NCBI GenBank assembly: GCA_021298285.1
Contig: JAJTFN010000023.1
Span: 1-40,879 of the forward strand
Direction: 5' to 3'
DNA: 40,879 bases
DNA from: Verrucomicrobium sp.
GTDB taxonomy: Bacteria; Verrucomicrobiota; Verrucomicrobiia; Limisphaerales; UBA9464
Part shown: one piece after another, positions 31,415-33,540 of the stretch
Position numbering within the stretch: position 1 is the stretch's first letter
Layout: each line of letters starts with the position of its first letter
The notes under the pieces: model-generated
Told to the model about the DNA's origin: nothing
Databases searched by the model: none
Seen by the model: the letters and a program-made list of their open reading frames with translations, nothing else
Program-made: the position numbers and the translations under genes

Positions 31415-32326
31415 CTAGTGGTGGGAGCCGTCCTCCCCGTGCTCCTCGTCGTGCGAACAGATGAGGAGGGTGAAGACCGCCGTCAGGAGCATGAAGACCA
31501 GGGCCTGGACGAGTCCGACCAGAAGTTCCATGAAGTAGAACGGCAGGGCCGTCAACCACCCCCAGGTGGCCCCACCCAGGTGCGTCATGGACTCGAGCAT
31601 GTTCTCGCCGGCGAAGACGTTGCCGTAGAGACGGAAGCTCAGGGAAACGGGCCGGAAGAGGATGGAGACGACCTCCAGGATGCCGACCGCGAAGAAAACC
31701 ACCACCAACACCAGGCCCATGAGGCCACCGAGGCCACCCTTGGCCCCGAAAAGATGCTTGAGGAACCCGACCGGACCGTTGGCCTGCAGGGCCCAGACCG
31801 TCCAAAGCACGAAGAAGACCAGCGCCATGGCGAAGGTCATGTTGAAATCGGCGTTGGCCCCGCGGAGGAGCGGCTCGGAAACGTGGAACCCGTGGTCGCC
31901 GGGATGTCCCCAACCGATGGTGCCGACGCCCGGCAGGAGCCCGAACCAGTTGGTCGTCACCACGAAGAGGAAGAGGGCCGAGAAGAACCAGAAGGTCTTG
32001 CGTACCAGGTCGGGCCCGATGATGCCGCCCAGGAAGTCGTAGAGTCCCTCGACGAGCCACTCCCAGAAGTTCTGCGCCCCCTCGGGGACCTGGCGGAGGG
32101 TACCGACGCCGATGCGCACGGCCAACACCAGGACCAGCGCGACCACCCAGGTGAGCACCATGGAATTGGTCACCGGCAGCGGGCCGACATGGAACAAGAC
32201 GGGCGCCGCCGACGGCAACCCTTGCTGGGCCGCGGCTTCGGCATGCGCGCCATGGTCGGCGGCCAGACCGCAGACCTGAAGGCCTGTGGCGGCGGCAAGG
32301 GCGACTGGAATGCTGGACCAACGCAT
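31415..32326 (-). CDS. atpB: F-type ATP synthase subunit a
   Basis: This is the 303-residue membrane stator subunit with the proton half-channels. From ATG 32326 it begins with a signal-like helix (SSIPVALAAATGLQVCG) and a His/Ala-rich periplasmic stretch. Typical helices follow, with EGAQNFWEWLVEGLYDFLGG, TNWFGLLPGVG, and the key SLSFRLYGNVFAGE holding the essential Arg. The C-terminus is His/Asp/Glu-rich. The frame is open for a further 250 codons upstream and includes an ExoD-like domain without any stop. Start 32326 is preferred because codons between the two domains lose the strong GC bias at third positions. An alternative start is ATG 32383. Confidence 0.92.
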   Translation of the reverse strand: MRWSSIPVALAAATGLQVCGLAADHGAHAEAAAQQGLPSAAPVLFHVGPLPVTNSMVLTWVVALVLVLAVRIGVGTLRQVPEGAQNFWEWLVEGLYDFLGGIIGPDLVRKTFWFFSALFLFVVTTNWFGLLPGVGTIGWGHPGDHGFHVSEPLLRGANADFNMTFAMALVFFVLWTVWALQANGPVGFLKHLFGAKGGLGGLMGLVLVVVFFAVGILEVVSILFRPVSLSFRLYGNVFAGENMLESMTHLGGATWGWLTALPFYFMELLVGLVQALVFMLLTAVFTLLICSHDEEHGEDGSHH

Positions 32327-33076
32327 CGTGTGGGGACGACCCACGGGCGCGACCACACCTTCACGGCGGATCAACGCGTCCATGGACCGGATGGGTTGAG
32401 ACTGGGAGATCGTGAAACTTTTCACAAGCGGTTTTTGCGGGCTTGGCAGAACGAATGGTTGTCCGCCGCACGAACGCGGATCGGCTGGCCGGAGGCCGGT
32501 CAATGGGCCAACCACTGGCGCAACCACTGCGCCGTCACGCTGGAGACGCCCCACACAGGCGAAGAAGATGATGAGCGCGGGCAGCGAGTTCTGAAGCGGC
32601 ACGACCAGGAACGGCACGGCGACCAACAGCCCACCGACAAGGATCAGCCACGCGGCCCCGCGCCGGCCCACCACCTCCACGAGGCGGAGCATGCGGTCGG
32701 GCCGGCTTACCCGGCCCAGCAGCCGGAGGAGCCCGCATCCGAAACCGGAGAAGGCATTCCACGTGGAGGGACCGGGCCGCGTCGATCGGATGCGGCCCGG
32801 CAACCAGACCGATTCATCCCCGCGCCGAAGGCGCCATCCGATGCCGGCGAAGGCCAGGCCGCCGAAGGTGGCGATCGGACCCGTGGGCAGCGGCTGGATG
32901 AAAGGCAGGGTGAGGATGAGGGACATGAGCCACGCGTTGCCGTCGCCGAGCCGGTCGAGGAACTCCCCGATGGTCTGCCCCCCGGAACGGGCGGCCAGCG
33001 CCGAGGCCCGGAGCGCCTGGATGAAATCGGACGCGGTGGCGCTCGGGGTCCGGTGGGGCTTCGGCTGGGAGGACAT
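32327..33076 (-). CDS. ExoD-like membrane protein, 3' end lost, open into atpB
   Basis: From ATG 33076 about 190 residues match the ExoD family (exopolysaccharide synthesis ExoD, small membrane proteins). The family phrases are SGGQTIGEFLDRLGDGNAWL, SLILTLPFIQPLPTGPIATF, GWRLRRGDESVWLPGRI, PFLVVPLQNSLPALIIFF and GRLQRDG. Family members continue with one more hydrophobic helix of about 25 residues. Here that helix is missing and the frame runs without a stop for about 60 low-GC3 codons into atpB, in phase. Either the protein is an ExoD-AtpB fusion, or it is a decayed exoD whose end was deleted. A nearby frame would end in AQWLRQWLAH-stop. It overlaps the operon path between the yqeY-like gene (18 bases upstream) and atpB. 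Confidence 0.6.
32412..32425. promoter_or_regulatory. Palindrome upstream of atpB
   Basis: GTGAAA-CT-TTTCAC, a 6+2+6 perfect inverted repeat, lies 86 bases before the atpB ATG in a local AT-rich patch. It could be an operator for an internal atp promoter. TTGTGA overlaps it on the minus strand as a weak -35, but no good -10 is found. Confidence 0.3.
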
Positions 33077-33093: not shown

Positions 33094-33540
33094 TCAAGGC
33101 AGGAGCCTGGAGACGAGCGCGCTGACGCTGCGCCCGTCGGCCCGGCCGTCCACCTTCGCCTGGGCGGCCTTCATGACGGCGCCCATGTCCTTCTTGGAGG
33201 TGGCACCCACCTCGGTGATGACCCCACGGACCAGGGCCTCGAGCTCCTCCGGCGTCAACGCCTTGGGCAGGAACCCGGAAAGGACCTCCAGCTCGGCGCG
33301 TTCGTTGGCGGCCATCTCGGCACGGCCGCCCTTCTCGAACTCCTCGATCGCGTCCCGGCGCTTCTTGGCCTCGCGCTGGATCACCGCCATCACCTCGGCG
33401 TCCGGAAGCGTGTCGGTCTTCTTCTCGATCTGGGCGTAACCCAGGGCCGCCTTGAGCATGCGGAGGGTGGCGGTGCGGACGGCCTCGCGGGCCATCATGG
33501 AGGATTTGAGTTCGTCGGTGACGCGTTGCTGGAGGCTCAT
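33094..33540 (-). CDS. GatB/YqeY domain-containing protein
   Basis: This is a 148-residue, helical, soluble protein with the complete YqeY pattern: MSLQQRVTDELKSSMMARE, LRMLKAALGYAQIEKK, VIQREAKKRRDAIEEFEKGGR, LEVLSGFLPKALTPEEL, and a C-terminal GAVMKAAQAKVDGRADGRSVSALV. Members resemble the tail domain of the GatB subunit of Glu/Gln-amidotransferase and may bind tRNA; the true function is not established. It overlaps the upstream UVR gene by ATGA and is followed 18 bases later by the exoD-like gene, so it leads into the atp operon. Confidence 0.92.
   Translation of the reverse strand: MSLQQRVTDELKSSMMAREAVRTATLRMLKAALGYAQIEKKTDTLPDAEVMAVIQREAKKRRDAIEEFEKGGRAEMAANERAELEVLSGFLPKALTPEELEALVRGVITEVGATSKKDMGAVMKAAQAKVDGRADGRSVSALVSRLLP

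Follow-up and report, generated by a model that had tools for sequence, protein, structure and literature searches.

We identified, in the window (the whole 40,879-nucleotide stretch of Verrucomicrobium sp. DNA analysed here), a single minus-strand frame that joins a truncated exoD gene to a complete atpB, and this arrangement is most probably a case of ordinary gene decay: exoD would have become a run-on pseudogene by recently losing about 95 bp, with AtpB still made separately. The frame runs from an ATG at 33076 down to 31415 and contains 553 codons plus a stop (554 in total; the stop codon is at 31415-31417, minus strand), with no internal stops; its stop-to-stop extent is 809 codons. It is composed of ExoD residues 1-186, a linker of 64 codons (residues 187-250), and then the complete AtpB (303 amino acids). 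A first-pass annotation of the window, which gave no strand, had described a 553-codon open frame uniting an ExoD part with ATP synthase subunit a; the translation is indeed stop-free, and both Pfam domains are matched. The translation of the plus strand of 31415-33076 is a spurious open frame, the real one being on the minus strand. The features of the region are as follows:

33094-33540, minus strand: yqeY (Pfam PF09424), directly upstream of exoD (gap of about 18 bp).
32519-33076, minus strand: exoD, truncated (codons 1-186, without the last transmembrane helix and the stop); matches PF06055 positions 3-165 of 180; complete in 17 of the 17 same-genus genomes having the gene.
32517-32531, minus strand: neighbourhood of the deletion junction, from alignments with relatives (about 95 bp absent relative to the closest relative, a length of 3n+2 that shifts the frame; the exact point is ambiguous by 2-3 bp).
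32487-32526, minus strand, approximate bounds: what is left of the former exoD 3′-end, reading QWLRQWLAH* in another frame (from frame translations and relatives).
32327-32518, minus strand: linker, made of the old exoD end and what was once the exoD-atpB intergenic region; it is open in the joined frame (from GC3 and dN/dS).
32410-32427, minus strand: Rex-type operator, TTGTGAAAAGTTTCACGA, near-palindromic, at -101 to -84 from the atpB ATG (from alignment, genome scan, and an order-wide check).
31415-32326, minus strand: atpB, F1Fo ATP synthase subunit a, with a conserved ATG at 32324-32326 (from Pfam and alignment; 95% identical in the closest relative).

Residues 20-186 of the joined protein match the ExoD family above the curated cut-off (PF06055, Pfam search; 94.6-97.6 bits against a gathering cut-off of 23.8), and here the likeness to the family ends: the match covers profile positions 3-165 of 180, and the gene lacks the last helix, which lies after position 165, as well as its own stop. 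The helix is present in all 17 same-genus relatives and the full domain including it is absent from the window genome, which contains a single exoD copy; the window gene is thus a truncated exoD and not an intact member of the ExoD family, and the missing last helix proposed in the first-pass annotation is confirmed. The AtpB part matches the full-length ATP-synt_A domain above the cut-off (PF00119, 135.7 bits, positions 1-215 of 217). The NCBIfam equivalog TIGR01131 gave 97.9 bits against a cut-off of 102.6, with the fused 560-aa protein as query. The N-terminus of AtpB resembles a signal peptide (MRWSSIPVALAAATGLQVCGLAA), and the frames downstream of atpB were recognised by eye as those of the alpha, beta, and other ATP synthase subunits. 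An AlphaFold2 model of the fused protein (16 rows) was too poor for use (mean pLDDT 38, pTM 0.25, with the minimum over the linker).

The window genome is a draft metagenome-assembled genome (MAG) of 3.37 Mb in 244 contigs, 88.9% complete, the window being its contig 203, and the same-genus genomes compared with it are Verrucomicrobia MAGs, several of them named after lakes or ponds. Several of these relatives were deposited as Akkermansia muciniphila, yet they group with the Verrucomicrobia of this genus by exoD and atpB, and are probably mislabelled MAGs. We found ExoD relatives in 17 same-genus genomes (68-95% identity), each match stopping at residue 184-185 of the query. All 17 of these exoD genes run past the sequence LQRDG into a common last helix (MYLLALLSL... 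or a close variant; for example, AMYLLALLSLAVTLVYFALVTWVMFFAAEHSWQWFRQWLGR*) and then reach their own stop. In 12 of the 17 relatives atpB lies on the same contig downstream of exoD, with a gap of 121-441 bp; in G015 the atpB match begins at residue 19, so the true gap is smaller than the listed 360 bp. None of the same-genus genomes examined has an exoD-atpB fusion.

The closest relative, G016, shares 95% amino acid identity with the window in both ExoD and AtpB, and its exoD stop lies 153 bp ahead of atpB. Of the same-genus genomes compared, that of the window is alone in missing about 95 bp (3n+2) from the 3′-end of exoD, a length that was counted by hand on the G016 sequence and agrees with the alignment gaps. 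At the window junction, GACGGCG is fused straight to CAGTGGTTGCGCCAGTGGTTGGCCCATTGA, the G016 counterpart of which is CAATGGTTCCGCCAATGGCTGGGCCGCTGA. Since the missing length is 3n+2, the remnant of the old C-terminus is now readable only in a shifted frame (QWLRQWLAH*, compared with QWFRQWLGR* and MWFRQWLGS* in relatives), and the exoD frame has become the atpB frame. The history suggested in the first-pass annotation, a deletion that took the end of exoD, is therefore well supported, and the search of close relatives for a complete exoD that it recommended found one in 17 out of 17. An assembly error of one inserted or deleted base that masks the exoD stop, raised at first pass as a refuting condition, is ruled out as the explanation, since the entire last helix is gone and not merely its frame. 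The deletion is probably recent, judging from the coding sequence that is left: the exoD dN/dS between the window and G016 (0.062) is close to that of atpB (0.050), and the ExoD part bears no mark of prolonged decay. (The atpB dN/dS with G011 is invalid, because an internal TAG in the G011 sequence broke the codon alignment; this in-frame TAG stands where the others read Q, in ...VPDGA*NFWEW..., and probably reflects either a CAG-to-TAG substitution or faulty sequencing of the G011 MAG.) The window segment 35887-38333, in which a carbonic anhydrase (Pro_CA) lies with a SulP-transporter-like frame, has no aligned counterpart in the G016 stretch compared, where a DUF1501 gene nearly abuts the next common block; the segment is either an insertion in the window genome or a loss in G016.

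The linker differs from both of its neighbours. Its GC3 is 0.641, compared with 0.882 in the ExoD part and 0.884 in AtpB, in agreement with the loss of GC-ending bias described at first pass. For the 38 codons that could be aligned ahead of the atpB ATG, the comparison of the window with G016 gives a dN of 0.229 and a dS of 0.165, a ratio of about 1.4, which reflects the past of this DNA rather than its state after the deletion, since these codons are non-coding in G016. The mismatches fall at the three codon positions as 8, 9, and 4, a pattern that looks as expected for DNA not read as protein. In relatives this DNA is the intergenic control region, and its substitutions show no constraint at the level of protein. 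Conservation of another kind is conspicuous in it: when the window is aligned with seven relatives that have the two genes adjacent, one intergenic block stands out, CTTGTGAAA...TTCAC.ATCTC, and TTGTGAA-N4-TTCAC is also present in five other relatives that have exoD next to atpB. The aligned relatives keep the atpB start, reading CACGATG or ACGATG there. A scan of the region, limited to the sigma-70 type among promoters, returned no sigma-70-type promoter match, and no terminator-like site was found.

That the joined frame is intact is not improbable after a deletion in the exoD tail. Among shuffled linkers of equal composition, 19% are stop-free, and the 51 codons upstream of atpB in G016, back as far as the exoD stop, are free of stops in the atpB frame even without a deletion. 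We simulated every deletion of 10-200 bp with its start among the final 45 exoD codons and asked whether an open exoD-atpB frame resulted: this was so for 21% of the deletions in G016 and for 23-29% in G011, G018, G003, and G007, with 1-4% in five others tested. In G018, G003, and G007 the AtpB frame is open for 59 codons upstream and overlaps the exoD end in another frame, and a suitable deletion could give a similar run-on there.

The conserved block carries the operator consensus TTGTGAA-N4-TTCACRA (32427-32410, minus strand), 101 to 84 bases ahead of the atpB ATG. The sequence TTGTGAA-N4-TTCACAA is the Rex operator described for Streptomyces and S. aureus (PMC5355995, PMC2883068). We found three perfect sites in the window genome, compared with none for a reversed-pattern control. 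The second is ahead of nuoB, after which come further complex I genes, among them that of the 49-kDa subunit; the third precedes a gene for a small secreted-looking protein (with a weak CarboxypepD_reg match, below the cut-off) and the genes of a ctaA-ctaB-coxA operon, namely COX15/CtaA, a UbiA-family prenyltransferase that is probably CtaB, and COX1. The window genome also has a full-length rex gene (NF003992, 242.6 bits against a cut-off of 226), and 18 of the 19 genomes of the genus contain PF06971, all but G016. Across the order, 27 of 30 atpB loci have an upstream site with two mismatches or fewer, whereas shuffled upstream regions gave a mean of 0.0.

The nearest parallel is Streptomyces avermitilis, in which both atpIBEFHAGDC and nuoA1-N1 are targets of Rex binding and repression (the atpI site being TTGTGATACGGTTCACGA), the sites at the atpI and nuoA1 promoters overlap the -35 region, and NADH reduces Rex binding (PMC5355995). 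Both systems have an operator of the TTGTGAA-N4-TTCACRA type ahead of the atp operon, a rex gene, and a nuo site, but they differ in that the first atp gene after the site in the window is atpB, that the third window site is ahead of a cytochrome oxidase operon, and that Rex binding in the window genome is predicted from the sites. This match of sites and genes suggests a compact Rex regulon in the genus, predicted to cover ATP synthase, complex I, and cytochrome oxidase. A literature search, with most subscription journals outside its reach, found no paper on the Rex regulon in this lineage of Verrucomicrobia.

The deletion is known from one MAG, so an artefact has to be considered, in which the organism would have a complete exoD and about 95 bp would have been lost through metagenome assembly or a mixture of strains. 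In its favour, the deletion is seen in a single draft genome and exoD is complete in 17 of 17 relatives; against it, the 401 bp around the junction contain no direct or inverted repeats of at least 10 bp that would explain a collapse. In addition, when the atp/exoD region of about 9 kb is aligned with G016, the other indels lie at or beside intergenic gaps and no other gene is broken, and the genome has no second exoD. We consider the artefact unlikely.

The other question is whether the joined frame is used as such. As the first-pass annotation stated, an ExoD-AtpB fusion protein could formally be made, the frame being intact across 553 codons, and transcription from yqeY-exoD could read through, given that the scan found no terminator-like site; the linker would also stay cytoplasmic if the topology of ExoD is as expected. 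Nothing supports such a protein as a functional product, however: the fusion is unique to the window genome among the genomes examined, and the linker, with its dN/dS of about 1.4, is former intergenic DNA where conservation falls on a regulatory site and not on a protein sequence. A true fusion, in which one polypeptide would enter the ATP synthase and the signal-peptide-like N-terminus of AtpB would become an internal membrane segment or be cut off, would also have an ExoD part without a helix conserved in all relatives. Subunit a is a member of a fixed assembly, and an N-terminal addition of 250 residues is unlikely as its main form; a literature search on ExoD-AtpB fusions gave nothing relevant. 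We regard a true fusion as highly improbable. It is very unlikely, too, that part of the AtpB is made as ExoD-linker-AtpB from the upstream promoter, so escaping control by Rex, and that this form is either tolerated or else processed at the signal-peptide-like N-terminus of AtpB.

Gene decay would account for the region in the following way. A deletion of about 95 bp would have cost ExoD its last transmembrane helix and changed the reading frame, so that the exoD frame bypasses its old stop, crosses the former intergenic region, and enters atpB, the two being open in the same frame by chance. The Rex-type operator inside the linker would mark a separate atp promoter, with about 32410 to 32327 as the putative promoter and untranslated leader of the atp operon, and translation of AtpB would begin at its own conserved ATG. 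AtpB most likely still starts at 32326, because the linker is unconstrained at the protein level and the conserved operator lies about 100 bp before the conserved ATG. The ExoD-linker-AtpB polypeptide would come only from transcripts begun upstream at the promoter of yqeY and exoD, which are probably co-transcribed, and would be a by-product. The arrangement is similar to the run-on frames that result from deletion of the stop codon in a decaying gene, in that the 3′-end and stop are lost, the frame is joined to the next gene, a single lineage is affected, and the neighbours are complete in relatives; it differs in that the run-on leads into an ATP synthase gene whose own conserved operator lies within the joined stretch.

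A single small deletion can thus give rise to a plausible-looking fusion gene, and an automatic pipeline could report as an "ExoD-AtpB fusion" a frame whose linker is a probable promoter region. The predicted Rex regulon is a more useful by-product of this analysis than the fusion, with the atpB operator kept across most of the order examined.
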